Shown piece by piece: positions 1,090 through 50,802 of a DNA stretch of 64,000 bases. Each line of letters starts with the position of its first letter. The first letter of the stretch is position 1. The stretch spans positions 310,001 to 374,000 of the forward strand of contig JAZKBK010000002.1 in NCBI GenBank assembly GCA_040388625.1, read 5' to 3'. The notes under the pieces were generated by a model. The model saw nothing but the letters and a program-made list of their open reading frames with translations. It was not told the DNA's origin and did no database searches. The position numbers were made by a program, and so were the translations under genes. Source of the stretch: Gemmatimonadota bacterium. GTDB taxonomy: Bacteria > Gemmatimonadota > Gemmatimonadetes > Gemmatimonadales > Gemmatimonadaceae.

Positions 1090-1486
1090 GCAGTGCCACC
1101 GGCTGGACGGTCGCGGAATAGTATCATTGCGATACTATTCCGAGGAAAGTCCGGGCTCCATGGACACACTGCCAGGTAACGCCTGGGCACGAGGCGGTAA
1201 AACGCCAAGTGACGGACAGCGCAACAGAAAACAAACCGCCAACGGGAAACCGTTGGTAAGGGTGAAACGGCGAGGTAAGAGCTCACCGCGTACGTGGTAA
1301 CACGTACGGCTTGGCAAACCCCAGTGGGAGCAAGGCCAAATAGGCGGCGAAGGGTGTCCACCCTGACAAAGACGCCGCGGGTAGGCTGCTGGAACGCGTG
1401 GGTGACTACGCGTCGAGAGAAATGACCGTCAGCCAGTCGAAAGACTTGGCGTACAGAACCCGGCTTATAGGCCGGTGGCACCTCTC
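1090..1486 (+). ncRNA. rnpB: RNase P RNA, bacterial type A (rnpB)
   Basis: Catalytic RNA of RNase P, which cuts the 5' leader from pre-tRNA. The universal blocks appear in order: GAGGAAAGTCCGGGCTCC (1141 onward), GCCAGGTAACGCCTGG, ACAGCGCAACAGA, AAACCGCC, GTAAGGGTGAAACGG, GGTAAGAGCTCACCGC, GGAGCAAGGCCAAATA, GGGTAGGCTGCT and ACAGAACCCGGCTTATAGGC. The outer P1 stem is an 11-bp perfect pairing of 1093-1103 with 1471-1481, which sets the ends to within a few bases. P3 is an unusually regular 12-bp helix (1114-1125 with 1131-1142). The matching protein gene, rnpA, lies about 4 kb downstream on the other side of dnaA. Confidence 0.96.
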
Positions 1487-3712: not shown

Positions 3713-5116
3713 TCATATCCTGAGAGATGCCAACAGTCCGCGGATCCTGCTGATTCTCGTTCCGGTATCTGCATCTGCAGCGATCATCTCGGCGACTTTA
3801 TCCAGGCTGTGGATTACGGTCGAATGATCTCTACCTCCGAAGGCTGCACCAATCTCTACAAGCTGCATGCCGAGCAGGTCGCGCGTCAGGTACATCGCAA
3901 TCTGCCTGGGCACTGTGAGGGCCTTGGTTCGCGTTTTTGACCGCAATCCGTCGACTGTAGTTCCCCACTCCTTTGCGACAGCAACCTGAATTGCGCTGAC
4001 TGTAAGACCGAGCGGTTCTGTGTCAGCTGTCAGGCTCTCGGAAGCTTTGAGCTTGTCTCGTAAGGCTTCCTTGGCTACTTCGACGCTTACGGGTTTGTGC
4101 CTGAGTGACGCGTAAGCCAGCAGCTTGATTATGGACCCTTCGAGCTCGCGGACACTCGACCGCACGTGCTCCGCGATAAAACGGATCACATCGTCCGGAA
4201 TCGTGGTTTCGAGATCATCCTGTTGAGATTTCTGTTGCAGGATCGCGATTCTGTGCTCGAAATCGGGCAGCTCGATATCGGCGACCATACCCCACTGGAA
4301 GCGGCTTACAAGTCTGGCCTCGAGTCCTGCTATGTCAGAGGGAGGACGATCACTCGTGAGGATTATCTGACGGCCGGCCTCATACAACGCGTTGAAGGTG
4401 TGAAAGAACTCCTCCTGGGTGCCCTCCTTTCCCTTCAGGAAGTGCACATCGTCGATGAGAAGGAGATCTGTTTCGCGATAACGACGCCGGAACTCGTGAT
4501 TGGTCCGAGTCTGGATTGCGTTGACCATTTCGTTGGTGAACTGTTCCGTTCCAACGAAGGTGATACGTGTGGACGGGTCGCGTTCGTAGATCGCGTGTCC
4601 TACGGCCTGCATGAGATGGGTCTTTCCGAGGCCGGTGTCGCCGTAGATGAAAAACGGGTTGTAGATCTTTCCAGGAGCCTCGGCGATTGCATGTGCGGCA
4701 GCAGCGGCGAGCTCGTTGGATTTGCCGATTACAAATTGCGCGAACGTGTATCTATCGTTAAGTGGCGCCTCGGTGGCGCGCTGTGGTCGCGATCGTGTCG
4801 CTGTTTCTTCGGGTTTTGGGGCTACGAAGAAATCCATCTGGGGGCGAGCCTGGCGCTCTTCGGTGACGCGGAATGCGACCTTGACCGGATGGCCCAGGGC
4901 GACTGGTCCAAACGAGCTCAGCAAGGCTGCGTGTTTTGACTCGTTCCAGTCAGCTGCGAAGCGATCAGGGGCTCCGACTATGAGCGTGTCGCCGATTATT
5001 TCGAGAGCTTCGGTTGGCTCGAGCCAGGTTTTGAAGGTTTGTTCGGGCAACTCGCGCCGAGCGCGCTCCAGAAGGCGTGACCAGATTTCGGCGGGGAGAA
5101 GATCGAGCGATTCCAT
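3713..5116 (-). CDS. dnaA: Chromosomal replication initiator DnaA
   Basis: AAA+ initiator that binds DnaA boxes and opens the origin. At 467 residues it has the normal domains: a short helical domain I (WSRLLERARRELPEQTFKTW), a variable linker, the AAA+ core from about residue 125 starting at YTFAQFVIG with Walker A GDTGLGKTH and Walker B LLLIDDVHFL, and a C-terminal DNA-binding domain containing GGRDHSTVIHSL, the DnaA signature that reads the box. It is divergent from rpmH with a 178-base gap and heads the dnaA-dnaN pair. Confidence 0.99.
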   Translation of the reverse strand: MESLDLLPAEIWSRLLERARRELPEQTFKTWLEPTEALEIIGDTLIVGAPDRFAADWNESKHAALLSSFGPVALGHPVKVAFRVTEERQARPQMDFFVAPKPEETATRSRPQRATEAPLNDRYTFAQFVIGKSNELAAAAAHAIAEAPGKIYNPFFIYGDTGLGKTHLMQAVGHAIYERDPSTRITFVGTEQFTNEMVNAIQTRTNHEFRRRYRETDLLLIDDVHFLKGKEGTQEEFFHTFNALYEAGRQIILTSDRPPSDIAGLEARLVSRFQWGMVADIELPDFEHRIAILQQKSQQDDLETTIPDDVIRFIAEHVRSSVRELEGSIIKLLAYASLRHKPVSVEVAKEALRDKLKASESLTADTEPLGLTVSAIQVAVAKEWGTTVDGLRSKTRTKALTVPRQIAMYLTRDLLGMQLVEIGAAFGGRDHSTVIHSLDKVAEMIAADADTGTRISRIRGLLASLRI

Positions 5117-6229: not shown

Positions 6230-7993
6230 ATGGATACAAGCAAGCGAATCGTTCTCGCCATCGTACTGGCCCTGGCTGTCATCTTTGGAATGCAGTTTCT
6301 GTTTCCTCAGAAGCCTCAACCCAAGCCAGCCAGTAGCGCTGACAGCGCTGCGGTACACAATCCGGCAGGAACCGCAAAGGCAAGTGCCGAGACGTCGAGG
6401 GTCGATTCGACAAAGGCGGCAGCGGCAATTTCTGCAGCAGTCGCTGCATCGGTTCCGGCCGCAGTGGCTGAAACAACGATCGTGGCGCCTGTCGCTGCGC
6501 GACGGGACAGTGGCGCGACCTTCGAGATGAGCAACGTTGGCGCTGCGCCCAGCGTGGTGGTGATGAACACCTACGCCAATCGTGTAAGTGGCAGCAATGG
6601 CGCGAAGGTGCGACTGGGCTCTGCTGGCAATCCGGTACTTAAGTACCAATTAGTTACCAATGGTGGCCAGCCGACGGACCTGTCCGGGACTGCATTTCAG
6701 ACGGCACGGTCCGGGGACGTCGTCACGTATACCGCCGATGTAGCTGGCTCGACCGTTACGATCAATTATGCGATCGTGCCGGACAGCTTCGTGTCGCATG
6801 TCACGGGTTCTGTGAGTGGCGCCAAGTCAGGGAGCTATCTCATCGTCCAATTGCCGCAAACCTTTGCGGCTACGGAACCAGACACAAACGACGATCGTAA
6901 TTCGCTGGCGTTTGCGTTCCTCACCAAGCGCGAGGCGGCGCGGAATGTGTCGTTCCATTCGCTCGATCCGGGTGAGAGGCAGCTGGTAGAGGGACCGGTT
7001 ACGTGGATCGTGGCCAAGTCGAAGTATTTCGTGGTGGGACTGCTGGCGCCCAAGAAGGGACCGGAGTTCACCGAGGCAACGCTCGTCGGCGGGCCGCGTA
7101 CGACGAAAGTCGCAACTCGTGCCTCCGGTACTGTCGTGATACCGATAGCGAATGGCGCATTCGGATTCGACATATACGCCGGTCCGCAGGAGTGGAAGAA
7201 ACTCAACGCGCTGGGTCGCGACTTCGACCAGGTGAACCCGTACGGCTGGGCGTTCGTGCGGCCGTTGATGCAACCAATTGCGACGTCGGTGATTCGCCTG
7301 GTGCTGTGGATGCACAGCGCGCTCAATCTGAGCTATGGGCTGGTTCTCATCGCACTCGGGCTTCTCATCCGTCTGCTGATGTGGCCGCTGTATCAGACGT
7401 CGATGAAGACATCGATCAAGATGCAGATCCTGCAGCCGGAACTGACGGCCGTGCAGGACAAGTTCAAGGACGATCCGGAGAAGCAACGGACGGAAATCAT
7501 GAAGGTGTACCAGAGCCACGGGATGAATCCGCTCTCGCCGCTGCTCGGATGTCTTCCATCGCTATTGCCGATGCCGATTCTGCTCGCGTTGTTCTTCGTG
7601 TTCAGGAACACGATCGAATTTCGCGGAGTTCCGTTCTGGTGGATGAGCGACCTGTCGGTGCGTGACCCGTACTACATTCTGCCGTTGCTGATGGGCGCAT
7701 CAATGTATCTCATCTCATGGATGGGAATGCGGAACACACCGCCGAATCCGCAGGCGAAGATGATGAGCTACATAATGCCGGCGATGTTCACGCTCTTTCT
7801 CTACAGAGAGGCTGCGGGACTCAACCTGTATTACGCGACTCAGAACCTTGCGACCCTGCCACAGCAGTGGCACCTGTCACGGACGCGCGGGATGAGCAAG
7901 CCAAAAGCTGCTGCCGGGGCAAAGGAAGTCGCGGCGACACCGGCGACACCTGCGCTAGCGAAGGGCAAAGCGAAGGGAAAGGGCAAGGGGTAG
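6230..7993 (+). CDS. yidC: Membrane protein insertase YidC
   Basis: Inserts and folds inner-membrane proteins, with or without the Sec translocon. At 587 residues it is the long Gram-negative form: an N-terminal anchor (residues 6-26), an Ala/Thr-rich linker, a large periplasmic beta domain (about 100-345), then the conserved insertase core with LSYGLVLIALGLLIRLLMWP, the cytoplasmic hairpin rich in K and Q (MKTSIKMQILQPEL), and PLLGCLPSLLPMPILLALFF. The C-terminus ends in a basic Lys/Gly/Ala tail, as is common for ribosome contact. Last gene of the rpmH string. Confidence 0.97.
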   Translation: MDTSKRIVLAIVLALAVIFGMQFLFPQKPQPKPASSADSAAVHNPAGTAKASAETSRVDSTKAAAAISAAVAASVPAAVAETTIVAPVAARRDSGATFEMSNVGAAPSVVVMNTYANRVSGSNGAKVRLGSAGNPVLKYQLVTNGGQPTDLSGTAFQTARSGDVVTYTADVAGSTVTINYAIVPDSFVSHVTGSVSGAKSGSYLIVQLPQTFAATEPDTNDDRNSLAFAFLTKREAARNVSFHSLDPGERQLVEGPVTWIVAKSKYFVVGLLAPKKGPEFTEATLVGGPRTTKVATRASGTVVIPIANGAFGFDIYAGPQEWKKLNALGRDFDQVNPYGWAFVRPLMQPIATSVIRLVLWMHSALNLSYGLVLIALGLLIRLLMWPLYQTSMKTSIKMQILQPELTAVQDKFKDDPEKQRTEIMKVYQSHGMNPLSPLLGCLPSLLPMPILLALFFVFRNTIEFRGVPFWWMSDLSVRDPYYILPLLMGASMYLISWMGMRNTPPNPQAKMMSYIMPAMFTLFLYREAAGLNLYYATQNLATLPQQWHLSRTRGMSKPKAAAGAKEVAATPATPALAKGKAKGKGKG

Positions 7994-8153: not shown

Positions 8154-8933
8154 ATGCGCATCACGTACATCGGGCATGCGACTCTGCTGATCGAGATTGG
8201 CGGGAAGACGATTCTTACCGACCCCAATTTCGATCCAGCACTGGGGCGGTTTCTGGCTCGGGTAAGTGCACCGGGAATTGCGATCGACAAGCTACCGAAG
8301 CTGGACATGATTCTGTTGACGCATGCACATGCCGATCATCTGTCGTTCCGGTCGCTCGCTGAAATCAAATCCGTACCGCTCTACGCCCCACCTCCCGTTG
8401 CGCGATGGATCCGCCGGCATGGAGTGACGAATGCGATCGAGCTCGGGCCTGGCGAGTCACTTACAAGTGGAAGCCTTACGGTACAGGTGGAGGCGGCAAC
8501 TCACTCCGGCAACCGGTACGTGATAGATCGGTGGCGCAAGCAGGCTAATATGTATCTAGTCGCTACTAATCGCGAGAGCGTGTTCTTTGCTGGCGATACC
8601 GCGCTTGCGGAGGATACGACTGCGCTCGTGGAGCGCGAGCTGAAGGGGCGCCAACTGGATGTCGCGCTGCTTCCGATTGGGTACGCACCCGCGTGGAAGG
8701 CTAAGAGCTTCAACAAGGGACACCTTACAAGCCTGGGTGCGCTGACGCTGTTCGAGCGACTCGATGCGCGATACCTGATTCCCTATCACTGGGGGACGTT
8801 CAACCATGTGACCGCGTCGGCATATGATGCGATACGTGAAATGCGGGAGCATGTCGAGACGCATGCACGTGGTACAGACGTGCGCATTCTCGAACCCGGG
8901 GAGTCCCTGCAAGTGCCGTCGCCGTCTGCTTGA
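8154..8933 (+). CDS. Metallo-beta-lactamase-fold hydrolase (UlaG/NAPE-PLD-like)
   Basis: A 259-residue predicted metal-dependent hydrolase. It starts MRITYIGHATLLIEIGGK, typical of the UlaG-like branch, and has the metal-binding motif LTHAHADHLS near residue 60, a further His in EAATHSGNRY, an Asp in FFAGDTALAED, and IPYHWGTFNH toward the end. Substrate is unknown; relatives act on phosphoesters, lactones or N-acyl phospholipids. No signal peptide, so cytoplasmic. Its TGA overlaps the TTG start of mnmE, suggesting translational coupling. Confidence 0.85.
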   Translation: MRITYIGHATLLIEIGGKTILTDPNFDPALGRFLARVSAPGIAIDKLPKLDMILLTHAHADHLSFRSLAEIKSVPLYAPPPVARWIRRHGVTNAIELGPGESLTSGSLTVQVEAATHSGNRYVIDRWRKQANMYLVATNRESVFFAGDTALAEDTTALVERELKGRQLDVALLPIGYAPAWKAKSFNKGHLTSLGALTLFERLDARYLIPYHWGTFNHVTASAYDAIREMREHVETHARGTDVRILEPGESLQVPSPSA

Positions 8934-10267: not shown

Positions 10268-12078
10268 CAACTTCCGCACCGATTGCAACAAACCCACCGT
10301 TTGTGCCGGCATCGAGCCTGGACATCTCGCTGGAGGTGGAGACTCCGGAGCAGATCGCTCTATCCTACTCCATTGCCGGGATAGGATCACGCGGTGCTGC
10401 AGCGGCGATCGACACATTGATCACCCTGGCGATACTCGTTGGACTGACCGTGATACTGCTGATCGCAGCCAATCACATGGGGCCCCGGCTGGCGAAGGCA
10501 CCTCCGTCATCGGCATGGGTGCTCGCATTCTATTTCATCGCGCAGTTCGTGATAATGTGGGGCTACTACGTGATATTCGAGGGAATCTGGGATGGCCAGA
10601 CTCCTGGTAAAAGGATCATGAAGCTGCGTGTCGTTCGTGACGGGGGTTTTTCGGTCACGTTCGGTGCGTCTGCGGTGCGGAATCTACTACGCGTCGTCGA
10701 TGCATTTGGAGTCTATCTCGTCGCAATCGTCGTCGCGCTCATGAACAGCTCGCGCAAGCGGCTTGGGGACATCGTCGCCGGCACGTTCGTCGTGAAGGAG
10801 GAGCGGGTGCAGGCTCGCTCCGCGCCGTTGCCCGCGACCGCACGGGATCGCAACTTGTTTGCCCGCCTCAGCGATGACGAGTACTCGGTGCTCGAGCGTT
10901 ATATCGAACGGCGCGGCACACTTGACCCGGCGCACAGGGACGTCATTGTCGCGCAGCTGGCGGCCAGGTTTGCGGAGCATCTGCCATCAGCAACGTCGCC
11001 GAGGGGCGCGCTCGTGCGGTTGTATGAATCCGAACGAGATACAAGGGCAAGTGGTGTTGCGTCACGAAGCGATACCGGCGCTCAGCGAGAGCAGCACGCA
11101 ATTGTCGCATTGGGCCTCAAACGCTGGAATGATTTCGCAGCTGCGCTCGATGCCGCATACAAGAAGCGGCTATCACGAATGGCGCCCGAAGACGTATCGG
11201 CTCTTGTCGCGCGCTACAGGGAGATGACGACCGATCTGGCGCGCCTTCAGACTGCGAGCCGCGGCCGCAACAACGAGTCTCTGTTCTACGTGAGTCGTCT
11301 GGTTGCGCGTGGGCACAATCTGTTGTACCGCCAGCGTGGGCGCACCATCGCAACGGTCTTTGATTACATGACGGACACCGTGCCGTCGGAAGTACGAAGG
11401 TCATGGAGGCCTATCGCGCTGGCTGCGCTGTTGCTGTTCGGGCCAGCCGCCGCCGCGTACACCAGCATCGTTCAGAATCCGGCAATTGCCAGCCGGATCC
11501 TGCCAGATGAGATGATAAGCAGAGCGACGATGGGCAGTGAGCGAGAAAAGCGCGGCGAAGGGTATGTATCCATACCAGAGGAGATTCGGCCAGTCGTAGC
11601 AAGCAGGATCATCTCGAACAATGTGACGGTGACGTATCTCACATTCGCGATGGGGTTGACGGCAGGAATCGGAACGATCCTCATGCTCGTATTCAACGGT
11701 GTCGCAATTGGAAGCGGCGTCGGCCTGTTTGCATCGCGCGGTGTGGCGAGACTCATCTTTGCGTTCATAGCGCCACACGGTGTTCTCGAGCTGAGCGCAA
11801 TCTGCATCGCCGGTGGTGGTGGGTTGCTGATCGCCAAGGGAATTCTGCTTCCGCTCAATAGAACCCGACGAGACGCGCTGGTGGAAAATGGAAGGCGTGC
11901 AATCGATCTCATTGCAGCGTCGACTCTGTTACTGATCGTTGCGGGAACACTGGAGGGATTGGTGTCGCCGCGAGTATGGCCGCTGACCTGGAAGCTCACG
12001 ATCTCCGGTGTGACGGCGCTTTTGATGCTCGGCTATCTGTCGCTGGGACGGCGGGTCAAAGCGTCGAGCGTTCCTTGA
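10264..12078 (+). CDS. Fused RDD domain-SpoIIM (DUF95) membrane protein
   Basis: A 604-residue membrane protein joining two families usually coded separately. Residues about 35-180 are an RDD domain (GSRGAAAAIDTLI, WDGQTPGKRIMKLRVV, KRLGDIVAGTFVV). A charged middle part follows (about 190-370). Residues about 375-600 are SpoIIM/DUF95-like with several membrane segments and the motif APHGVLELSAI. RDD and SpoIIM genes commonly sit beside moxR, DUF58, DUF4129 and DUF4350 genes, exactly what lies head-on downstream. The ATG overlaps the mnmE stop (ATGA), and the 3' end overlaps the DUF58 gene by 23 bases on the other strand. Confidence 0.88.
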   Translation: MTTSAPIATNPPFVPASSLDISLEVETPEQIALSYSIAGIGSRGAAAAIDTLITLAILVGLTVILLIAANHMGPRLAKAPPSSAWVLAFYFIAQFVIMWGYYVIFEGIWDGQTPGKRIMKLRVVRDGGFSVTFGASAVRNLLRVVDAFGVYLVAIVVALMNSSRKRLGDIVAGTFVVKEERVQARSAPLPATARDRNLFARLSDDEYSVLERYIERRGTLDPAHRDVIVAQLAARFAEHLPSATSPRGALVRLYESERDTRASGVASRSDTGAQREQHAIVALGLKRWNDFAAALDAAYKKRLSRMAPEDVSALVARYREMTTDLARLQTASRGRNNESLFYVSRLVARGHNLLYRQRGRTIATVFDYMTDTVPSEVRRSWRPIALAALLLFGPAAAAYTSIVQNPAIASRILPDEMISRATMGSEREKRGEGYVSIPEEIRPVVASRIISNNVTVTYLTFAMGLTAGIGTILMLVFNGVAIGSGVGLFASRGVARLIFAFIAPHGVLELSAICIAGGGGLLIAKGILLPLNRTRRDALVENGRRAIDLIAASTLLLIVAGTLEGLVSPRVWPLTWKLTISGVTALLMLGYLSLGRRVKASSVP

Positions 12079-13426
12079 TTTCCAGATAGCGATTGATCAG
12101 AGCAGCAGTCATGCCCCTGGGCGCTGTATCGAGGACTGCGACTCCGGCCTGGCGCATGATCTGAAGCGCTTCGTCCCGTGCGGAGAGAAGCTCCTCGGCG
12201 GCGGCGCTCTCGTAGGTCTGCTCGTCACTGGCATCCGGCGATGGAACGGAGGCCAGAACCAGCTGCTCATTGCGCAAGGCCACGACCAGCGGAAGATGAC
12301 GTTCGGCGCTTCTTGCAGTCAGTGCTATCACGGCGCGTGAAGATCGAACGTCTATCACATCGGTGAAGAGGACAATGAGTGAGCGGCGCCGATTGCGCTC
12401 GGTGAGGGTACGGAATGCAGCTGCGTAATCCGGTTCCGTCATCGTTGCCGTGACGCCGGTCAATGCGTCCCGGAGGGCACCGAGGGTGCCGGGCGCGCGC
12501 GTCGGCGCGATGTAACGGCGGACAAGCGAGTCGAAGACAATGAGACCGACGCGATCGCCGGTGGAGAGAGCGATATCCGCAAGAGTCAGTGCTGACGCGA
12601 GAGCATACTCGAAGCGCGGTCTGTCGCCGGCGAGCTGAGTCATCATTCTGCCGCAGTCGATCGCGATCATGATGGTCTGGCCCTGCTCCACCGTGAACTC
12701 GCGCGAGATGAGGCGGTGACGGCGCGCGGTCGCCTTCCAGTCGATGCGGCGCGGGTCATCGCCCGGTACATAGTCGCGGAGATTGGCGAACGATGTTCCT
12801 GCACCGCGCCGACGTATCACACGCTGGCCCGCGGTTCTCACGCGGTACTGCGCAGCGAGGAGACGATACCGGCCAGCGTTAGCCATGGACGGGATTATCG
12901 AAATAGTATCACTTGGATAATAAATCACCGAGCGCCGGACTAACTTCCACGGGCCAGAGATGGTGATTGCAACCGGGCCGAGCGGGAACGTGCCGCGGGC
13001 TCGTCCTGTAACCGTAAGAGTGGTAAGAACCGAGCTACCCGGACCGACTTCCATCTCTTTTGCGTCGAGGTTGGTGGCAAGGAGCGCCGAGGGAAGTTGC
13101 TGAGTCATGAAGACGCTCAGTGGGCCAGGCCACGACGACGTGATCGTGCATGTTCCCATTCTGCTGTCACCGACACCGATCGTGGCCGGGAAATCACGCG
13201 TCAGCTTCACGTAACGTGCGCCGGGAATCCGTAGTGCATCGACAAGGGCTGCGATCGCGACGATTGCAGTTACTGCAGTCGCGACTACCTGACCAGCCGT
13301 GCTCGAGGAAAAGATCCAGACCGGTGCAGTTATCGCTACCACCAATGCCAGTCTCGGCGTGGGAGCATACCTCGCCAGCGAGCGCAATGGCCGGGCGATA
13401 CGGCCAAACAACCGCGATAGAATCAT
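12056..13426 (-). CDS. DUF58 (VWA-like) protein of the MoxR cluster
   Basis: A 456-residue protein with two N-terminal membrane segments (about residues 20-65), an outer Ig-like part, and a C-terminal von Willebrand-type fold. The DUF58 signature is YVPGDDPRRIDWKATARRH followed by EFTVEQGQTIMIAIDCGRMM (a divergent MIDAS start) and SLIVLFTDVIDVRSS. These proteins act with MoxR ATPases, probably as metal-binding adaptors or scaffolds at the membrane. It is the last gene of the minus-strand operon, 37 bases after moxR. Confidence 0.9.
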   Translation of the reverse strand: MILSRLFGRIARPLRSLARYAPTPRLALVVAITAPVWIFSSSTAGQVVATAVTAIVAIAALVDALRIPGARYVKLTRDFPATIGVGDSRMGTCTITSSWPGPLSVFMTQQLPSALLATNLDAKEMEVGPGSSVLTTLTVTGRARGTFPLGPVAITISGPWKLVRRSVIYYPSDTISIIPSMANAGRYRLLAAQYRVRTAGQRVIRRRGAGTSFANLRDYVPGDDPRRIDWKATARRHRLISREFTVEQGQTIMIAIDCGRMMTQLAGDRPRFEYALASALTLADIALSTGDRVGLIVFDSLVRRYIAPTRAPGTLGALRDALTGVTATMTEPDYAAAFRTLTERNRRRSLIVLFTDVIDVRSSRAVIALTARSAERHLPLVVALRNEQLVLASVPSPDASDEQTYESAAAEELLSARDEALQIMRQAGVAVLDTAPRGMTAALINRYLEIKERSTL

Positions 13427-14423: not shown

Positions 14424-15694
14424 TCTCGAAATGCCCTCTCGATGTTCGCGACCGCAGCGCCGACGGCGGCGAGATGGTCTGATGAGTTCGGGGAATCTGG
14501 TACAAGAGCCGTCGCTATGCGATCGATATCCGGGGACGTCGCCGGTAGCCGGTCCCGTAGTGCCGACAGATAGGTCGAATTCGATACCGATCGAGGCAGA
14601 CCAAGCGAATGGCGCCGCCGGAGGCCGCGGACCAGCATGCCGGTACCGAGACTACGCGCATCGACCTGCGAATAAGCATGCGCGAGTGCGCCAACGTGCT
14701 CGAGCGGGGAGCGACGCGAGATCAGAGGCACCGGTAACGGTCCAAGCGGTCGCACGGCGAACGCAAGGAGAAGCACCAGGGCAGCGGCGACGATCCCAAG
14801 CGTTACCCGTCCTAACGGGGTATCTGTGAGCGCATGCGAGATGGCAGCTGGCATGTCGGCGTGAATTCCGAAGCCGTGATGATATTCGTCGAAGACGACA
14901 CTCCCAGGCCGTTTCGGGGAAGATCCGGAGCCATTCGCGAACTGGAGTGCGCGCACGATCGCGATGGCTGCCTGCGGGTTACGCATGACCTGATTCATCA
15001 GGATCTCGGCCGGCGCGACGGCGATCACATAGCCCTGACCAAGTCGGTGCCCGAGCACCAATGCCGGTCGCAGAGCCGAGTCGGCTTTTGCGCCATCGCC
15101 GTCGCGCAATGACTGGAGCCAGAGGAATGTCTGGTTGTCCGACTTGGATTTCGACGCGACGGTCACAGATATGGGAAAGGCAGCCTGAAAGGCAGCGCGT
15201 GGATCCTGTATTGCCGGAGTCGGTGGATTACCTCCGGCGACGGTTGTTCGGCTCAATGTGTAGAATCCACTCGGCGCTGAATTCAGCTCGAAGCCCAGCG
15301 AATCGGTGAGTTCGTCGTCGTCCGGGGTGAATAGGAGAACCATACCGCGACGCACTGCCGCCAGAATTTGCGCCTGCTCGATCGTCGTGAGCGGTTGCGC
15401 GGGTTGTATGAGAGCGTAAGCCGAGGTCGAATCGAGGGTGGCGGGTGAAGTGAGCGGCTTTTCGTTGCGACTCGTGATGAAGCCGAGCCGGCCCAGCGTT
15501 TCGTAGAGCGCTCTGACGCCACCCGCTCCTACGGCCTGGGAGCTGTACGCCGTTCCCACATCTTCTCGTTCCTGTGGAGCGAAGAGGACAAAGATGACCA
15601 GCAGGATTGCTACAGCGGAGAGAACGCGGGCAGCCGTAAATAGACTACCGCCAGCTCGTGTCTTGAATCCGGTGATGGATGGCGCGTCGCTCAT
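14420..15694 (-). CDS. DUF4350 membrane protein of the MoxR cluster
   Basis: A 424-residue protein with a membrane segment near the N-terminus (about 20-42) and another around 300-320, enclosing an extracytoplasmic domain that resembles a ThuA/GATase-like fold: GGVRALYETLGRLGF, then RGMVLLFTPDDDELTD and GSVVFDEYHHGFG. The C-terminal part is cytoplasmic. The function is unknown; the family is defined by linkage to moxR and DUF58. It overlaps both neighbours by 4 bases. Confidence 0.85.
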   Translation of the reverse strand: MSDAPSITGFKTRAGGSLFTAARVLSAVAILLVIFVLFAPQEREDVGTAYSSQAVGAGGVRALYETLGRLGFITSRNEKPLTSPATLDSTSAYALIQPAQPLTTIEQAQILAAVRRGMVLLFTPDDDELTDSLGFELNSAPSGFYTLSRTTVAGGNPPTPAIQDPRAAFQAAFPISVTVASKSKSDNQTFLWLQSLRDGDGAKADSALRPALVLGHRLGQGYVIAVAPAEILMNQVMRNPQAAIAIVRALQFANGSGSSPKRPGSVVFDEYHHGFGIHADMPAAISHALTDTPLGRVTLGIVAAALVLLLAFAVRPLGPLPVPLISRRSPLEHVGALAHAYSQVDARSLGTGMLVRGLRRRHSLGLPRSVSNSTYLSALRDRLPATSPDIDRIATALVPDSPNSSDHLAAVGAAVANIERAFRE

Positions 15695-16350
15695 TGTCCG
15701 AGACCGGGTGCGGTATTACCGGTACCGTCCAGGGCAGCATTCGCAGCGGACTTCGATGGAGGAGCTTGCAGGAGGCTACCTGCCAGCGTGTTGAGTGTGG
15801 TGAAGCGGTCTCGATCGCAGATGCCAATGCCGTAGATCACCGTTTCGTACGAGCGTGTGAAGTCGGTGAAGCGCGGCAGGTCGATCGCGCCTGGCTTTCT
15901 GCGAAGCTCGCGCAGGTAGTCGCCTGTGGTCTTGGATTCATGGAGGGACACGAGTCCGCGGCGTGCGGCTGCCCCTATGAGCGCGAGATAGAGAGCGTGT
16001 GCTGCGCCGGTATAGTCGTTCTGCGCGGCGAGCGTCTGTGCGGTGGCCCACCAATCGGTGCCGCGGTTGGACTCGGACCTCCGCAATCCGATTGTGGATG
16101 GTGCGAAACGCAGCAGGAGGCCATACACGATGCGAGCGAGTATGGCCAGCAGGGACAATCCGAGGGCGATGCGAAATACGATGCCGACCGCCGGATGACT
16201 CTGGGCAAAGCCAAAGAATCGAAGAACCAGATTCCATATCCATTGTGCGATCAACTCTCTGATGGAAACAGAGCCACGACCGGCGAAGGTGCTGCTGCGG
16301 AAGACGGCGGCGACTGTATCCGCGATGGCGGCGTTATCGAGCGGGCCCAT
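15691..16350 (-). CDS. DUF4129 protein of the MoxR cluster
   Basis: A 219-residue protein with one clear membrane segment (about residues 55-80) and the conserved C-terminal DUF4129 region: LAAQNDYTGAAHALYLALI, then ARRGLVSLHESKTTGDYLRE and FTRSYETVIYG. This part resembles a regulatory or adaptor domain and has no catalytic residues that I recognise. The start codon lies on the edge of an inverted repeat (see 16350-16370). The gene overlaps the DUF4350 gene by 4 bases. Confidence 0.85.
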   Translation of the reverse strand: MGPLDNAAIADTVAAVFRSSTFAGRGSVSIRELIAQWIWNLVLRFFGFAQSHPAVGIVFRIALGLSLLAILARIVYGLLLRFAPSTIGLRRSESNRGTDWWATAQTLAAQNDYTGAAHALYLALIGAAARRGLVSLHESKTTGDYLRELRRKPGAIDLPRFTDFTRSYETVIYGIGICDRDRFTTLNTLAGSLLQAPPSKSAANAALDGTGNTAPGLGQ

Positions 16351-16370
16351 TAGTATCGATTAGATACTAA
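16350..16370. promoter_or_regulatory. Inverted repeat TTAGT-N11-ACTAA at the DUF4129 start
   Basis: A perfect palindrome with 9-bp arms (ATTAGTATC 16349-16357 and GATACTAAT 16363-16371) around a 5-base centre. It fills most of the 27-base gap between two operon genes and touches the DUF4129 ATG. It shares the 5-11-5 pattern with the operator of the NrtR-like gene at 48910-48930. It could be a protein-binding site or an RNA hairpin that hides the start. Confidence 0.5.
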
Positions 16371-19835: not shown

Positions 19836-19856
19836 TTAGTACCAACTAGCCACTAA
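19836..19856. promoter_or_regulatory. TTAGT-N11-ACTAA element just before the beta-CASP gene
   Basis: The arms TTAGT (19836-19840) and ACTAA (19852-19856) have the same 5-11-5 spacing as the two other sites in the window (16350 and 48910), although here the inner bases are not symmetric. It ends two bases before the ATG at 19859, replacing any Shine-Dalgarno sequence, so a bound protein here could control expression of the operon starting at 19859. Confidence 0.35.
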
Positions 19857-19858
19857 AT

Positions 19859-21241
19859 ATGGAAATCGAGTTCTACGGCGCAGCCCGGGAGGTTACCGGG
19901 TCGTGCCACATTCTGCGCGTGAACGGCAAGGTCGTGATTCTGGACTGCGGAATGTTCCAGGGGCGGCGGAGCGAATCCACCGCGAAGAACAAGACACTGC
20001 CCGTGGCGATAGCGGAGATCGATGCCGTGGTGTTGTCGCATGCGCACATCGACCATTCCGGGCGACTGCCATACCTGGTTCGAAAGGGCTATTCCAAGAG
20101 CATATTCGCGACGTCGGCGACCCGGGACCTGTGTGCGGTGATGCTGGCCGACTCGGCGCACATACAGGAGAGCGACGCCAAACATCTGGCGAAGAACCAC
20201 AAGCAGTTCGTAGAGCCGCTGTACACGATGCAGGATGCAGTGCGGACGCAGGATCTGATTATCGGGATCCCGTACAACAAGACCTTCGACGTCGTACCGG
20301 GAGTGCGGTGCACATACATCGACGCCGGCCACATTCTGGGCTCGGCATCGGTGCTGCTGGACATCACCGAGCACGGGAAGACAAGGCGGCTGGTGTTCTC
20401 CGGTGACATCGGCCGGCCCGGTCTGTCGATCATTCGTGACCCGGTAGTGCCGGAGGGGGCGGACGTTGTGATCATGGAATCGACGTACGGCAACCGTGAT
20501 CATGAGACCGTAGTCGACGCACGGGCTCAGCTTGCCGCGGTCGTGCGGGATACGGCAGCGCGTGGCGGCCGGGTTCTGATTCCCTCGTTCGCCGTCGGGC
20601 GCACGCAGGAGCTGCTCTACAACCTGAATGGACTTTCACGGGAGGGGGCGATTCCCCCGATTCCGATTTACGTGGACAGCCCGCTCGCGACCGACACCAC
20701 CACGGTATTCGAGCTGCATCCGGAGGTGTTCGACCACACGGAAGATCTGGTGAACAAGGCGAAGAACCTATTCCAGTTTCCGCAGGTGCACTTCACGCGG
20801 AGCGTGGAGGAGTCAAAGGCGCTGAACACAGCGCACGGGCCAATGGTGATCATCGCCGCGTCGGGAATGGTGGAAGCAGGCCGCATCCTGCACCATCTGG
20901 TGCAGGGGGCTGGGGATCCCAAGAACACGATTCTATTCGTGGGTTATCAGGCCGAGGGAACGCTTGGCAGGAGAATCGAGGCGAGCCCGCCTACGGTGCG
21001 TATTTATGGGGATGATATTCCATTGCGGGCCGAGGTGAAGATCATCGATGGGTACAGCGCCCACGCCGATCGGGCGGAGCTGACAGCATGGATCGACGGT
21101 GTGAAGGCGACATCGCCCCAACTGAGCGAAATATTTCTGGTGCACGGAGAGGCGGACGTACAGGACGTCTTCAAGACAGCGCTAACTGCGAAGGGGTACA
21201 TGGTAGAATGCCCGGAACCCCGTGTAAAGCGAACGGTCTGA
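19859..21241 (+). CDS. Beta-CASP metallo-beta-lactamase ribonuclease (CPSF-like)
   Basis: A 460-residue predicted RNA-cleaving enzyme of the CPSF73/TTHA0252 type. It has the metallo-beta-lactamase motifs (SHAHIDHSGRLPYL near residue 61, AGHILGSA, FSGDIGR), the beta-CASP insert (VLIPSFAVGRTQELL, IYVDSPLA) and the RMMBL end (FVGYQAEGTLGR, IDGYSAHADR, LVHGE). It probably processes or degrades RNA in the cytoplasm. It leads a plus-strand run: the first M16 gene starts one base after its stop. Confidence 0.92.
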   Translation: MEIEFYGAAREVTGSCHILRVNGKVVILDCGMFQGRRSESTAKNKTLPVAIAEIDAVVLSHAHIDHSGRLPYLVRKGYSKSIFATSATRDLCAVMLADSAHIQESDAKHLAKNHKQFVEPLYTMQDAVRTQDLIIGIPYNKTFDVVPGVRCTYIDAGHILGSASVLLDITEHGKTRRLVFSGDIGRPGLSIIRDPVVPEGADVVIMESTYGNRDHETVVDARAQLAAVVRDTAARGGRVLIPSFAVGRTQELLYNLNGLSREGAIPPIPIYVDSPLATDTTTVFELHPEVFDHTEDLVNKAKNLFQFPQVHFTRSVEESKALNTAHGPMVIIAASGMVEAGRILHHLVQGAGDPKNTILFVGYQAEGTLGRRIEASPPTVRIYGDDIPLRAEVKIIDGYSAHADRAELTAWIDGVKATSPQLSEIFLVHGEADVQDVFKTALTAKGYMVECPEPRVKRTV

Positions 21242-41957: not shown

Positions 41958-42017
41958 GCAGCGTCAAAATGTCGCCGTGCCCGGTAAGCAGGCGCAAAAA
42001 ATCGAGATAGTAGCAAT

Positions 42018-43412
42018 ATGTCAATAAAACGAAACGAGCGGCCATACGACAACGTTCTCGAGACGATCGGGTGGACGCCGCTGATCCGGCTGCATCGGGT
42101 GACGCGCGGTATTCGCACGCCGGTGTACGGCAAGGCCGAGTTCTTCAATCCGGGCGGATCGGTCAAGGATCGCATCGGGCTTCCGATCATCGAGCGGGCC
42201 GAGCGTGAGGGAAAGCTCAAGCCGGGGGGAACGATCGTCGAGGGTACGAGTGGCAACACCGGTGTGGGTCTCGCGCTTGCCGCTGCATTGCGCGGCTACA
42301 AGTGCATCTTCACGCTGCCCGACAAGATGTCGCAGGAGAAGGTGCGGCTGCTCAAGGCGTTCGGTGCAGAAGTGATCGTGACGCCGACCGCCGTCGCACC
42401 GGATCATCCGGACAACTACGTGATGATGGCGAAGCGTATCGCGGAGCAGACACCGAACGCCATCCTGGCGAATCAGTTCTACAATGAGGCGAACCCCGAT
42501 GCGCATTACGCGACGACCGGTCCCGAGCTGTGGGAACAGAGCGAAGGAAGGATCACACACTTTGTAGCATCAGCGGGAACCGGCGGCACGATCACCGGCG
42601 TCGGGCGTTATCTCAAGGAGCGCAATCCCGACATCAAGATCATTGCTGGTGATCCGACGGGATCGATACTGGCTGAGTACTGGCGCAGTCATGGCGAGCA
42701 CAAGATAGAGGGGGCTCCGTACAAGGTCGAGGGAATCGGCCAGGACAAGGTTCCGGGAACGCTCGACATGAGTGTGATCGACGAGTATCACACAGTGAGT
42801 GACCGCGACGCATTCGCCATGTCACGTCGTCTCACGCGTGAGGAAGGATTGTTCGTTGGCGGATCGTCGGGGTTGATCGCGAAAGTCGCTCTGGACCTCG
42901 CGCGACGCATCGACGATCCGGACGCGTTCGTGGTGACGTTCCTGTGCGACACTGGCGAGCGGTATCTCTCCAAGCTGTACAGCGACGAATGGATGCGTGA
43001 GAATCAGATGCTCGAAGCCGAGCACGTCACACTCGGCGACATGCTCGGCCGCAAGGATGCCAATGCGCCGGCGATAGTGAGTGTTGCGCCTGCGGCGGGG
43101 GTACGACAGGCACTCAATCTCATGGCGCTACACGACGTGTCGCAGCTTCCGGTGATGGATGGCGATGAGTGTGTCGGATCGGTTGTCGAGGCAACGTTGT
43201 CGCAACGGGGACTGGAAACGCCGGCATTGCTGGAAGCGACTGTGCGCGAGGTCATGGATGCACCGTTTCCGTCGCTGACGAGTGACGAGGCGATCGAGTT
43301 CGCGGTGAAGCTGCTGTCAAAGAGTACACCAGCTGTGCTGGTGCTCGAGCATGGTCATGTCGAGGGGATCGTCACGCGATCGGACATGCTGAGATTCATG
43401 ATGGGGCGGTAG
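42018..43412 (+). CDS. Cystathionine beta-synthase
   Basis: A PLP enzyme that joins serine and homocysteine to cystathionine (transsulfuration). The 464 residues have the catalytic domain with Lys50 in FFNPGGSVKDRIG, the cofactor-phosphate loop SAGTGGTITGVGRYLK and TSGNTGVGLA, followed by two C-terminal CBS domains (about 340-464), which usually bind adenosyl compounds. Cysteine synthases lack the CBS pair, so this is more likely the beta-synthase type, though some enzymes of this layout also make cysteine. Confidence 0.92.
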   Translation: MSIKRNERPYDNVLETIGWTPLIRLHRVTRGIRTPVYGKAEFFNPGGSVKDRIGLPIIERAEREGKLKPGGTIVEGTSGNTGVGLALAAALRGYKCIFTLPDKMSQEKVRLLKAFGAEVIVTPTAVAPDHPDNYVMMAKRIAEQTPNAILANQFYNEANPDAHYATTGPELWEQSEGRITHFVASAGTGGTITGVGRYLKERNPDIKIIAGDPTGSILAEYWRSHGEHKIEGAPYKVEGIGQDKVPGTLDMSVIDEYHTVSDRDAFAMSRRLTREEGLFVGGSSGLIAKVALDLARRIDDPDAFVVTFLCDTGERYLSKLYSDEWMRENQMLEAEHVTLGDMLGRKDANAPAIVSVAPAAGVRQALNLMALHDVSQLPVMDGDECVGSVVEATLSQRGLETPALLEATVREVMDAPFPSLTSDEAIEFAVKLLSKSTPAVLVLEHGHVEGIVTRSDMLRFMMGR

Positions 43413-43417: not shown

Positions 43418-44434
43418 GTGCCGATCCTGTCCCCACTCCGGATCACTGTGCTCATGGGCGGGGCGTCCGCCGAGCGTGATGTGTCGCTTGCCTCGGGACT
43501 CCGGATCGCCGACGCATTGGCGACACGAGGGCACATGGTTACCGCGCTGGATCCGGCCGTTGGTGTCCTGTCGCCAGCCTACCTCGATGAGTTGCGGCGG
43601 AGCAACGTTGGGACGAGGCCACCGGCACTGGAAGAGCTCGCCGGCCTGGGGAGCGCCCGTCTGCGTGATGGCCTGACAGCAATGCCGGAGATTCGAGATG
43701 CGGACGTCGTTTTTCTGGCGCTGCATGGGGGCCAGGGCGAGGACGGTACGATCCAGGCTCTGCTGGACATGGCTGGTGTGCGATATACCGGAAGCGGCCA
43801 CCTGGCGAGCGCGCTCGCGATGGACAAGGACCTGTCCAAGGTCCTTTTCAGGGCGGCTGGAGTTCAGACTGCGGATTGGCTGATGGCTCCGCAGCCGGGC
43901 AAACTCGTCGAACAGTCGCTCGGGCTACCGGTTGTCGTGAAGCCGTCGAAGCAGGGCTCGACTGTCGGGCTGTCGATCGTGCGCGACATTTCGGAGCTGG
44001 ACGCCGCTGTCGCCGAAGCTTTCAGATATGACGACGAGGTGATGATCGAGCGATTCATCGCCGGTCGCGAGCTGACGGTTGGAGTGCTGGGGGACGAGAC
44101 TTTCCCGGTAGGCGAGATCAAGCCTGTGAAAGAGCTGTACGACTACGAGTGCAAGTACACGGCGGGAATGGCGGTCGAGGAATTTCCTGCGAATTTATCG
44201 CAAAGTGTTACTAATAAACTGCGGGAGCAATCCTTGCGGGCGTTCAGGGCACTGAAACTGCGAGGGTACGCGCGAGTGGATTTCCGTCTGGATGATCGCG
44301 GTGAGTGCTTCTGTCTCGAGGCGAACACGTTACCGGGAATGACGAGGACGAGTCTGATTCCGCAGGGCGCCGCCGCCGCGGGAATGGGATTTGAAGAGCT
44401 GTGCGAGAGGATCGTTCAGCTGGCAATTGTGTAG
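43418..44434 (+). CDS. ddl: D-alanine-D-alanine ligase
   Basis: Makes the D-Ala-D-Ala dipeptide for peptidoglycan. The 338 residues show the ATP-grasp features: LMGGASAERDVSLASG near the start, LALHGGQGEDGTIQALLD, YTGSGHLASALAMDK, VVVKPSKQGSTVGLS, and FCLEANTLPGMTRTSLIPQGA for the metal site. The GTG start at 43418 is five bases after the preceding stop, suggesting co-transcription with the cbs gene. Confidence 0.96.
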   Translation: MPILSPLRITVLMGGASAERDVSLASGLRIADALATRGHMVTALDPAVGVLSPAYLDELRRSNVGTRPPALEELAGLGSARLRDGLTAMPEIRDADVVFLALHGGQGEDGTIQALLDMAGVRYTGSGHLASALAMDKDLSKVLFRAAGVQTADWLMAPQPGKLVEQSLGLPVVVKPSKQGSTVGLSIVRDISELDAAVAEAFRYDDEVMIERFIAGRELTVGVLGDETFPVGEIKPVKELYDYECKYTAGMAVEEFPANLSQSVTNKLREQSLRAFRALKLRGYARVDFRLDDRGECFCLEANTLPGMTRTSLIPQGAAAAGMGFEELCERIVQLAIV

Positions 44435-46994: not shown

Positions 46995-48224
46995 CTAGCG
47001 CACCTCTCCCGTCGTTCCAAACATCACTCCGTGCTTCTCCGGCCCGAAGTAAGTCAGGACTGCAATCACCACGGCAGCACACGCGGCGACAACCGCCAGC
47101 GCATACGCGTAGTTCCCACCGTGGCTCGCAGCAAATCCCGCCTGCAACGCAGCGTTCCCCGAGGCCAGCAGATTGCCAAGCTGATACGCGAAACCGGGGA
47201 AGGTTCCGCGCACCTCGTCCGGTGACAGCTCGTTGAGATGAACCGGAACGACACCCCACGCTCCCTGCACCGCGACCTGCATCAGGAACGCACCGAGTCC
47301 AAGTAGAATCGGTGTCGCGCTGAACGCCCACAACGGTATGATCGGCAACGCTATCAGCGCTCCAAACACGATCGCCTTTCTTCGTCCGATGCGCTGTGAC
47401 AGTGCACCAAACGCGAGGCCACCGGTTATCGCTCCGACGTTGCCGATGATCGACACGATACTCACCGTGTGCGTCGTGAACTTGTGCTGGATCTGCAGGA
47501 AGGCCGGATACAGATCCTGCGTGCCGTGACTGAAGAGATTGAACGCGGTCATTAGCACAACCACGTAGATGAACAACGGCCAACGCTTCTTCAATACGCT
47601 CATCAGACTCTGCGTCGGTCGCTCGCGCATCCTGTTCCACGCAGGCGATTCCTGCACATTGCGGCGAATGAACAGCACCAGCAACGCCGGCAGCACACCG
47701 ACCATGAACATGCCGCGCCATCCTATACGGTCGAACAGCAAGCCGTACACGACAGACGCGAGCAGATAGCCGAACGGATAGCCGGTCTGAAGAATTCCCG
47801 ATGCTATGCCGCGTGCCTTCGCTGGAATGGTCTCCATGGTGAGAGACGCGCCGAGTCCCCACTCACCGCCCATCGCGAATCCGAATGCGGTACGCAACAC
47901 CAGCAGTGCAACGATCGATGGCGCGAATGCCGACGCGAATTCCAGTATCGAGAACAGCAGGATGTCGATCATGAGCACTGGTCTGCGGCCAAACCGGTCG
48001 GCCAACATTCCGAACACCAGCGCTCCGGCGGGGCGCGCAGCGAGTGTCAACGTTATCGCGACGGCTACTGCCTTGACATCAGTCCCGAACTCCTTCGCGA
48101 TGGCGGCGAGCATGAACACCATGAGAAAGAAATCGAATGCGTCGAGAGTCCAGCCGAGGAAGCTTGCGACGAGCGCGCTTCGCTGGTTACGGTCGAACTC
48201 CTTCCACTCGCTCATCACACTCAT
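46995..48224 (-). CDS. MFS transporter, sugar-acid/carboxylate type
   Basis: A 409-residue inner-membrane transporter with about twelve helices. SFLGWTLDAFDFFLMVFML in the first helix and GMLADRFGRRPVLMIDI in the 2-3 loop are MFS hallmarks; the opening resembles sialic acid (NanT) and monocarboxylate symporters. The start is ATG 48224, whose bases overlap the TGA of the upstream regulator gene (ATGA), so the two are translationally coupled. An in-frame start at 48323 lies inside the regulator. The regulator probably controls this transport according to a cell metabolite. Confidence 0.88.
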   Translation of the reverse strand: MSVMSEWKEFDRNQRSALVASFLGWTLDAFDFFLMVFMLAAIAKEFGTDVKAVAVAITLTLAARPAGALVFGMLADRFGRRPVLMIDILLFSILEFASAFAPSIVALLVLRTAFGFAMGGEWGLGASLTMETIPAKARGIASGILQTGYPFGYLLASVVYGLLFDRIGWRGMFMVGVLPALLVLFIRRNVQESPAWNRMRERPTQSLMSVLKKRWPLFIYVVVLMTAFNLFSHGTQDLYPAFLQIQHKFTTHTVSIVSIIGNVGAITGGLAFGALSQRIGRRKAIVFGALIALPIIPLWAFSATPILLGLGAFLMQVAVQGAWGVVPVHLNELSPDEVRGTFPGFAYQLGNLLASGNAALQAGFAASHGGNYAYALAVVAACAAVVIAVLTYFGPEKHGVMFGTTGEVR

Positions 48225-48901
48225 CCGAGCAGGTCGAACCTCACCCCGCGCCTTGCCCGGCGGCGTTTTCTGGGACCGTACCTGAAGAGTTGCGCAGGCC
48301 GTCCGCGACCCTCGCTGCGCCATTCATCCGTCGGCTCGACGAGTGCGGCGGCGGTGAGCGCGCGACGAAAGCTCGCCTTGTGCAGTCTCCGTCCAAGCAG
48401 CAGCTCGTACATGTGCTGCAGCTCGCTCAACGTGAACGTTGCCGGCAACAACCTGAAGGCGACCGGATACAGATCCAGCCGATCGCGGACGGCGTTCACG
48501 GACTCCTGCAGCATCTGATTCTGTCGCTCGGTGAGCGGCGGGAGTTCGCTCAGGAGAAACCACTGGAACTCGGCACCCTGCACCGTTGCTTCGCCCATCG
48601 GAACGAGGGCGACGTACACGATCGACAGATCGGAGCCGCCAGGATGGGGACCTTCGCTGAAAGCGCCGACCTGTGTGCTCCAGATGGATGCGGCGCCCGC
48701 GCTTCGCCTGATCGCATGCTGTGCAAGATCGTCGAGTCCCTCGCCATTCCGTGATGCACTCCACGGAAGCACCCAGCGCACAGACTTCTCTCGACCTTCG
48801 CTGCGCCGCTCGAGCAACACCGCGAGCTGGTTGTCGCGTGGAGTAAGTGCGACTACGTCAACGGTATAATGCTGACGTTTTTCCCGGGGCTCTCTGGTCA
48901 C
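48221..48901 (-). CDS. NUDIX-type transcriptional regulator (NrtR-like)
   Basis: A 226-residue protein with an N-terminal NUDIX fold (about 10-140) and a C-terminal winged helix (about 145-226) with FRLLPATFTLSELQHMYELL and LHKASFRRAL, the NrtR signature. The Nudix box is broken (no REUxEE; SRNGEGLDDLAQHAIRR stands there), so it should bind a nucleotide-like effector without cutting it. NrtR members repress NAD or sugar metabolism genes and sense ADP-ribose or related compounds. GTG start; the promoter upstream carries a palindromic operator. The MFS gene follows in the same operon. Confidence 0.85.
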   Translation of the reverse strand: MTREPREKRQHYTVDVVALTPRDNQLAVLLERRSEGREKSVRWVLPWSASRNGEGLDDLAQHAIRRSAGAASIWSTQVGAFSEGPHPGGSDLSIVYVALVPMGEATVQGAEFQWFLLSELPPLTERQNQMLQESVNAVRDRLDLYPVAFRLLPATFTLSELQHMYELLLGRRLHKASFRRALTAAALVEPTDEWRSEGRGRPAQLFRYGPRKRRRARRGVRFDLLG

Positions 48902-48906: not shown

Positions 48907-48936
48907 ATATTAGTCACATATTGTGACTAATGTCAA
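48907..48936 (-). promoter_or_regulatory. Promoter with operator of the NrtR-like regulator operon
   Basis: On the minus strand, TTGACA (48936-48931) is a perfect -35; TAATAT (48912-48907) is a -10 with 18-base spacing. The spacer is filled by a palindrome with 10-bp arms, ATTAGTCACA and TGTGACTAAT (48909-48918 and 48922-48931), which contains TTAGT-N11-ACTAA. A repressor here would block polymerase directly. The predicted start of transcription is at or next to the GTG start codon 48901, so the mRNA may be leaderless. Confidence 0.8.
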
Positions 48937-48987: not shown

Positions 48988-50802
48988 TCAGGGAGTGATG
49001 GTCAACCCGTCGCCGCGCTTCGCGACTGGCGGTATTGTGATCGGAAGATGGCCCGATGCAGGCAAGAGGCCAGTTATGACTTGAGCTGCCGACTGCTGGC
49101 TTACGTTTGCACCATCCCAGCCGACGACGTAGGTAGGAGTGCTGGGAATCTGAGAAAGCAGGTACGGATTTCCGAACGAAACCACAACAACCTTGCGGCC
49201 CCTGGCGACGAGACTGGAGAGCCAGTCGGCGAACGCCTGCGGCGCATCGACGCTCGTGACGTTCCAGCTCTGCCCTACGTAGGATGAAACGATGGTCACA
49301 TCTGCAGAGTCGGCCATCGCTGCGAGGCGGGGATAGTTGACGGCTGGATCGTCCGACATGACGAATTCCATACGAGTTGCGGGTGCCAGCTTGGCGAGCT
49401 CGGCGTTGAAGATCTGGCCAGCGCCGAGATCTGTACGACGCGCAACCGTCACCGAGAGGACCTTCGTGTTGGTCGAGAGCTTGAGCGGCAGGATGTGCGA
49501 TGAATCGCGGACGATCGTTATCGATCTGTTCGCCGCCTGCTGTGCCAGCGCGAGATGCGCGCTGTCGCCCACCGTTGTGCGCAGCGAGTCGAGGTTCGCG
49601 AAACGGTTGCGGTCGAGATTCAGCTTGCGCTTCATGGCGAGTATGCGCCTCGCCGCCTCCGATACGCGAGTCTCGCTGTAGCGTCCCTCGCTCACGCCGG
49701 CCACCACCGCGTCGATCGCGGCGGGAACGTCGAGGGGCTGGATCAGCACGTCGACGCCGGCTGCTACGGCGCGCTTGATTGCTTCCGTCGAGCCGTACTT
49801 GTCGGTCACGCCCTTCATGTCCATGGCATCGGAGATGACGAGTCCGTTGAATCCCAGCTCATTGCGCAGCAGTCCGGTTACCACGTTGGATGAGAGGGTT
49901 CCTGGCGCGCCGCTGCTATCGAGCGCCGGCATGGAGCCGTGGAATGTCATCACAGCGCCGACTCCCGCCTTGATCGCCGCGCGGAACGGGACAAGCTCCA
50001 CCGTATCGAGCCGAGCTCGGCTCACGTTCACGATTGGGAGAGCGAGGTGAGAGTTGGTCTCGGTGTCGCCGTGCCCCGGGAAGTGTTTCGCGGTGGCGAT
50101 CATCCCGTTGTCCTGCAACCCATGGATGAACGAGACTCCGAGGCGCGCGACCTCGTGTGGATCCTCGCCGTACGAGCGGGTGTTGATGACGGGGTTCGCG
50201 GGGTTGTTGTTGACGTCGAGGACCGGGGAAAAGTCGATGTGGATACCGAGTGCGCGGCCTTCGATCGCGGTGACCCGTCCCTCGGTGTACGTGAGCGCCG
50301 TGTCATTCGCCGCGCCGTACGCCATTTCTGATGGAAAGACCGTGGCGCCGCCGAGGTCGATGCCGTTGGGGACGAAGTAGCCGCCGCGGGCACGCATGCC
50401 TGCGCCCGTTTCGAGATCGGCGCCAACCAGTAGCGGAAGGGCGCTCATGCGCTGGAGCGCGTTGAGCTTGACGGCCATCTCGATGGGTGATCCGATGGAC
50501 ATCAGGATCCCGCCCACCTTTTGATCGGCGACGTACGACGTGACCTTGCGCCAGGTCTTCGCATCGGCCGGTACGTAGTCGGCGTAGATGTTGGGCCAGA
50601 CCATCTGGGCAGCGCGATCTCTGAGCGTCATGGTGGTCAGAACCGAGTCTGCCCACCGGTTGGCGTCAGATTCGACTGCTGCCCGCGACTTGCCAGCCGC
50701 CTGCGCAGCGGCGGACGATACTGGCACTGCCAGCGGGCAGAGCGCGGCGATAGCCACAAACATGGCGGCTGTCAGATGAGTGGTCGCAAGTCTCGAATGC
50801 AT
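48988..50802 (-). CDS. Exported glycoside hydrolase family 3 enzyme (NagZ-like)
   Basis: A 604-residue secreted hydrolase. After a signal peptide (ending SSAAAQAAG) comes the GH3 TIM barrel: LLVGADLETGAGMR, FSPVLDVNNNPANPVINTRSYGEDP, and the NagZ-type motif KHFPGHGDTETNSH, with the nucleophile region GLVISDAMDMKGV. A second GH3-C-like domain follows (about 390-600, VVVVSFGNPYLL). It probably removes N-acetylglucosamine from peptidoglycan fragments or chitin-like glycans. ATG 50802 is chosen, since longer in-frame starts add no signal-like sequence. Confidence 0.9.
   Translation of the reverse strand: MHSRLATTHLTAAMFVAIAALCPLAVPVSSAAAQAAGKSRAAVESDANRWADSVLTTMTLRDRAAQMVWPNIYADYVPADAKTWRKVTSYVADQKVGGILMSIGSPIEMAVKLNALQRMSALPLLVGADLETGAGMRARGGYFVPNGIDLGGATVFPSEMAYGAANDTALTYTEGRVTAIEGRALGIHIDFSPVLDVNNNPANPVINTRSYGEDPHEVARLGVSFIHGLQDNGMIATAKHFPGHGDTETNSHLALPIVNVSRARLDTVELVPFRAAIKAGVGAVMTFHGSMPALDSSGAPGTLSSNVVTGLLRNELGFNGLVISDAMDMKGVTDKYGSTEAIKRAVAAGVDVLIQPLDVPAAIDAVVAGVSEGRYSETRVSEAARRILAMKRKLNLDRNRFANLDSLRTTVGDSAHLALAQQAANRSITIVRDSSHILPLKLSTNTKVLSVTVARRTDLGAGQIFNAELAKLAPATRMEFVMSDDPAVNYPRLAAMADSADVTIVSSYVGQSWNVTSVDAPQAFADWLSSLVARGRKVVVVSFGNPYLLSQIPSTPTYVVGWDGANVSQQSAAQVITGLLPASGHLPITIPPVAKRGDGLTITP

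Follow-up and report, generated by a model that had tools for sequence, protein, structure and literature searches.

The window (the whole stretch of 64,000 nucleotides analysed here) carries on its minus strand a gene for an NrtR/AraR-fold regulator of 226 aa, P0001 (48221..48901, GTG start). Upstream of it, also on the minus strand, lies a glycoside hydrolase family 3 (GH3) gene (48988..50802, start near 50802). It is followed on the same strand by the gene for an MFS transporter of 409 aa, sialate/lactate-symporter-like (46995..48224). The genes dnaN, dnaA, yidC and mnmE were identified in the window by sequence inspection. Together with the profile match of DnaA (Bac_DnaA_C, at G000:C2:313794), they indicate that the window is the replication-origin region, which is marked by dnaA (3713..5116, minus strand). 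Elsewhere in the same genome, a 139-aa open frame (G000:C7:10790-10975) codes for another protein, a short one, with a DnaA C-terminal domain.

The promoter of the regulator gene (48907..48936, minus strand) consists of a −35 TTGACA (48936-48931), an 18-bp spacer (TTAGTCACAATATGTGAC) and a −10-like TAATAT (48912-48907). After it come GCTGC and, 5 nt past the −10, the GTG start (48901). This short distance from the −10 to the start codon, the one feature considered here, suggests a probably leaderless mRNA for the regulator, in the window and across the family. Superimposed on the promoter is a 23-bp palindrome, ATTAGTCACA-ATA-TGTGACTAAT (48909..48931, minus strand), made of 10-bp arms around a 3-bp centre; it has a 21-bp core (48910-48930) and scores 31.5 bits on the family matrix (see below). 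The promoter, the palindrome and the −10 of the original prediction were all found again in the minus-strand sequence, and shuffled windows contained 0.00 such palindromes. Its statement that the palindrome exactly fills the spacer was slightly loose: besides filling the spacer, the palindrome reaches into the −35 (its final base) and into the −10 (four bases). Even with 3 mismatches allowed, the 21-bp core has no further copy in the genome (3.84 Mb).

P0001 matches the Pfam profiles NrtR_WHD (77 bits, cut-off 27) and AraR_C (40 bits, cut-off 24). Among PDB sequences, AraR (5bs6) was the best match and NrtR (3gz5) the second, and an AlphaFold model computed from the family alignment (pLDDT 87, pTM 0.83) returned the same two in the same order. 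The Nudix box has lost its catalytic Glu residues, both in P0001 and in the family alignment. Among 40 orthologues, all have NrtR_WHD, and 18 are recognised by the NUDIX profile. Profiles, PDB matches, model and missing glutamates thus bear out the view of P0001 as an NrtR-like protein with a broken Nudix box. It belongs to the NrtR family at the level of the fold (Nudix-like N-terminal domain, NrtR winged helix, impaired catalytic motif), and stays far below the equivalog level (74.1 bits with the NCBIfam NrtR equivalog, cut-off 400). Such a protein would be a dimeric DNA-binding protein recognising the 21-bp palindrome, with consensus TTAGTAnC-N5-GnTACTAA, and its non-catalytic Nudix domain would probably be used chiefly to dimerise or to sense a ligand weakly.

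An ADP-ribose-like or sugar-derived signal had been proposed for this regulator, and no positive evidence was obtained for it. Across the 40 orthologues, hardly any variation is seen in the winged helix or in the basic tail, which ends in GVRFDLL, whereas the Nudix domain is variable, with little conservation in the presumed effector pocket. This is the reverse of what is expected for a conserved ligand pocket, but a ligand may nevertheless exist. AraR, which has an inactive Nudix box and binds a palindrome, contacts arabinose through Arg34, Arg86 and His131 (PMC4666351). The residues aligned to these are R33, P85 and Q127 in P0001, and A, R and Q in the family consensus, so that R33 is the sole counterpart in P0001, and across the family the three are not kept together. 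The conserved C-terminal tail, RKRRxxRRGVRFDLL (window 48221-48270; RFDLLG at the very end of P0001), was not seen in AraR or NrtR, and could be a partner-binding motif.

The ATG of the transporter gene (48224) overlaps the regulator stop codon (ATGA), and therefore the two genes are probably co-translated in the window genome. The transporter itself is nearest to sialate/lactate-type symporters, yet well under the family cut-off (387 bits versus 553). The original prediction saw in this pair a switch for transport. When conservation of the pair was checked, the MFS gene was found to adjoin the regulator in no more than three genomes, all of the same genus (G000, G021 and G190), unlike the regulator and its operator, which are family-wide. 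A transporter switch is therefore not supported as the main function, nor outside this genus, and was rejected as the conserved function. The GH3 gene often neighbours the regulator at orthologous loci across the family; peptidoglycan recycling was considered on this ground, but gave no regulatory link.

Conservation of the operator and a small neighbouring gene

The operator is kept upstream of about 40 of the 45 orthologous loci that were read. Nearly all of them show CTTGAC(A/T), then TTAGT-N11-ACTAA, then the start codon after 7-12 nt. Absence of the palindrome upstream of orthologues had been named beforehand as a result that would speak against the prediction; the prediction survived this check. 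Based on the conservation of the operator within the same promoter geometry, autoregulation is likely and, in our view, well supported. The operator overlaps both promoter elements, which means that bound regulator would repress its own, probably leaderless, transcript. A symmetric family matrix was built from 41 operators upstream of orthologues, and used for the scans described below.

About 35 orthologous loci have a small gene close to the regulator gene, usually directly downstream (for example L085:7268-7573). Its promoter bears a related, less symmetric site, TTAGTTGCAAnGTGTA. Alignment of 27 of the products revealed a helical N-terminal part, a variable linker and, in nearly all, the end QMELPLSA, QIELPL or QLDLPL. 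This end resembles QLSLPL, the clamp-binding hexapeptide of Hda (PMC3836487), and hints at a link with replication. The product had no PDB match and belonged to no known family, and its fold model was weak. No such gene was found beside the regulator gene in the window genome.

Operator-like sites around oriC

Scanning the window with the family matrix yielded nine sites of at least 18 bits, compared to a Markov expectation of 0.0. With 300 column-permuted palindromic matrices, the mean was 0.05 site and the maximum 3. Besides the operator, these are eight less perfect copies around oriC that the original prediction had overlooked, all described here on the plus strand. Four lie within genes: 6640..6660 in yidC, 8549..8569 in an MBL-fold gene (a site is present at the same codons in G016), 12903..12923 in a gene of the minus strand (12056-13426), and 44194..44214 in ddl (43418-44434), where synonymous variants are kept in two congeners. 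Three are at start codons: a strong site, TTAGTATCGATTAGATACTAA (16350..16370), abuts that of the minus-strand gene 15691-16350, another (19836..19856) lies 2 nt ahead of that of gene 19859-21241, and the third (42007..42027) spans that of gene 42018-43412. The last one, ATAGTATCATTGCGATACTAT (1118..1138), falls on the apparent P3 hairpin of RNase P RNA. The same coincidence of an operator-like palindrome with this hairpin was seen in two genera (window 1118-1138, G016:C26:321721 and G190:C19:115153). The site near ddl had raised the idea of a dcw (division/cell-wall) regulon, which was dropped, as dnaA, dnaN, yidC and mnmE show that this is the oriC region.

Over the window genome as a whole, the motif was found at 15 places with up to 2 mismatches. 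The window contig holds 11 of these, and 9 are grouped around oriC in a stretch of about 68 kb. A reversed-pattern control gave as many matches genome-wide. This means that the signal in this genome is in the clustering and in the promoter conservation, not in the total.

To place the sites of the family relative to dnaA, genomes were scanned for TTAGTNNCNNNNNGNNACTAA with 1 mismatch allowed, leaving out the sites of the regulator's own promoter and of the small gene. Within 30 kb of dnaA we counted 43 of the 145 sites (29 genomes), versus 2.0 expected under a uniform spread; binomial p-values for this excess assume independent sites and, the genomes being related, overstate its significance, while the effect size is unaffected. 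In the 3.5-Mb genome G064, with the own operator and the small-gene site included, 13 of 13 sites are on a single 700-kb contig, within 300 kb of dnaA. Members of genus g20 have 17 to 24 sites per genome, spread over many contigs and not placeable relative to oriC. One of the recurrent sites is found at the same codons (LVAxRNY) of a mutS-like gene in about a dozen genomes.

Synonymous codons were then shuffled within each gene, which preserves both the protein and the codon usage. In ten contiguous origin regions from regulator-bearing genomes, 24 coding sites of at least 18 bits were observed, versus 0.18 expected; the 24 include a few regulator promoters, put by our simple gene caller in an extended ORF, whose removal leaves the picture unchanged. 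In G019, a genome without the regulator gene, there were 0 coding sites, and 0 after the shuffle. The sites are thus selected within coding sequence. A composition artefact was ruled out by the Markov, column-permutation and synonymous-shuffle controls.

Of 85 sites that were classified, 53 are coding, 26 are close to a start codon and 6 lie between genes, whereas about 92% of random positions are coding. Coding sites are the majority, yet the non-coding or start-adjacent ones (32 of 85, the regulator's own promoters included, versus about 8% of random positions) are over-represented, so that the role may in part be ordinary control of promoters. P0001 could even be an ordinary local transcription factor, repressing itself and several origin-proximal genes through operators at start codons, with intragenic sites acting as roadblocks or weak operators, and with the MFS gene recruited in this genus under the control of a metabolite. 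The textbook geometry of the operator at its own promoter, the excess of non-coding sites, the position of 4 of the 9 window sites at a promoter or a start codon, and the ATGA overlap coupling regulator and MFS all fit such a factor. Yet most sites lie within coding sequence, far from starts, with the same codons conserved between species; the clustering at the origin extends over many genera whose neighbouring genes differ; and the MFS pairing is confined to one genus. We consider this explanation rather unlikely.

Sites and the presence of the regulator gene

In the 20 genomes of the family without a detected regulator gene, the mean number of matches was 0.3, compared to 5.3 in the 35 genomes with the gene (4.4 once one operator is subtracted from each). 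Within genera 2, 5, 8 and 10, 0 or 1 site is present in members that lack the gene, and at least 2 in most members that have it. G248, whose copy of the regulator gene carries an in-frame TGA, has 0 sites. There are exceptions: G158, G134 and G039 have the gene but 0 matches at this stringency, and G079 has its own operator only. Origin sites are therefore not universal among genomes with the gene.

The fact that site numbers follow the regulator gene points to the regulator as the reader of the sites, rather than ParB, which is present in G019, where both the gene and the sites are missing. The palindromes near the origin could in principle have another reader, such as ParB or some other origin-binding factor, the regulator promoter merely carrying one of them. 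Consistent with this, four genomes (G000, G021, G190 and G254) have many palindromes and lack, genome-wide, any canonical parS (1 mismatch allowed); in several genera, one site recurs 0.4-1.1 kb from a canonical parS, upstream of parA. But canonical parS and these sites occur together in G128, G072, G026, G101 and G064, ParB is kept in G019, and sites vanish with the regulator gene within four genera; another reader is thus very improbable. As to the particular case of a new parS read by ParB, it is ruled out by the coexistence with canonical parS in several genomes and by the sites tracking the regulator gene, not parB. No canonical 16-bp parS was found at the sites, their motif is unrelated to it, and no parS-like site of the window was better than 3 mismatches.

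Some further observations were made around parS and parAB. The three genomes of genus g1 (G000, G021 and G190) have parB although they lack a canonical parS (1 mismatch allowed), and in G000 two degenerate repeats, TTTTTTCACGTTCCAC, precede parA. The site near parS, in G072, G004 and other genera, sits at the gene preceding parA-parB, which by eye is SIMPL/DUF541-like.

Clustering at the origin could also serve titration. Sites close to oriC are doubled early on copying; they would draw the repressor off its own promoter, producing a pulse of the regulator and, in most genera, of the small gene with the clamp motif, so that both would be coupled to replication initiation. An autoregulatory operator, origin-clustered sites, and a neighbouring gene with a clamp-binding-like tail and a related site of its own are the ingredients for this. 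Site numbers going from none to 24 between genomes, and the missing small gene beside the regulator in the window genome, speak against such a device, and we hold it to be improbable.

Known systems and the proposed role at the origin

AraR of Bacteroides thetaiotaomicron (PDB 5bs6, 5deq) has the same two-domain fold, Nudix-like plus winged helix, and is the best match of P0001 in sequence and structure. The two differ by the arabinose-contacting set, which is not kept, and by the clustering of the sites at oriC; no arabinose genes were present at the sites inspected. NrtR, the ADP-ribose-responsive regulator of NAD (PDB 3gz5, 3gz6), shares the fold and the winged-helix family (Pfam NrtR_WHD). 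No NAD metabolism genes were found at the inspected sites, which were all but four weaker genomic ones.

In the layout of its sites, the regulator resembles nucleoid occlusion factors. SlmA of Escherichia coli has a transcription-factor fold and binds palindromic sites that are more common near the origin (PMC4117426). It is a TetR-family protein acting on FtsZ; fold, motif and partner differ from those of the present system as far as these are established, and the likeness is one of layout. Noc with its NBS, and ParB with parS, use origin-enriched 16-bp palindromes, partly within genes (PMC4331003, PMC7333895), and in these two respects they are like the sites described here. Here again the protein family and the motif differ. 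Enrichment of sites near the origin is common to SlmA, Noc and the sites attributed to P0001, but the fold of P0001 is that of NrtR/AraR, neither TetR nor ParB.

The best-supported account, drawn by analogy with SlmA and Noc, is that this NrtR-family protein represses itself and binds the selected sites clustered at oriC, acting on the origin domain rather than as an ordinary promoter switch; we regard it as moderately probable. Besides its operator, the regulator would bind the further sites concentrated around oriC, many of them within genes, where it would probably act on origin-domain organisation, replication control or division. More tentatively, and as a possibility to which we give distinctly less credit, the Nudix-fold protein would be a marker of the origin domain in Gemmatimonadaceae, reading intragenic palindromes around oriC. 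With its small clamp-binding partner, in most genera, it would couple replication or division to the state of the origin, possibly under the control of a nucleotide-like ligand.

We found no paper in the open-licence literature linking an NrtR-type family to the origin. To our knowledge, few protein folds (those of ParB, Noc and SlmA) read origin-centred sets of sites on the chromosomes of bacteria. With the functional claim set aside, the site motif, the positions and the gene-loss series still make the hypothesis directly testable. If it is true, metabolite-sensing repressors can turn into chromosome-domain factors, and one could then examine directly, in a phylum that has received little study, whether control of the origin responds to a metabolic signal.
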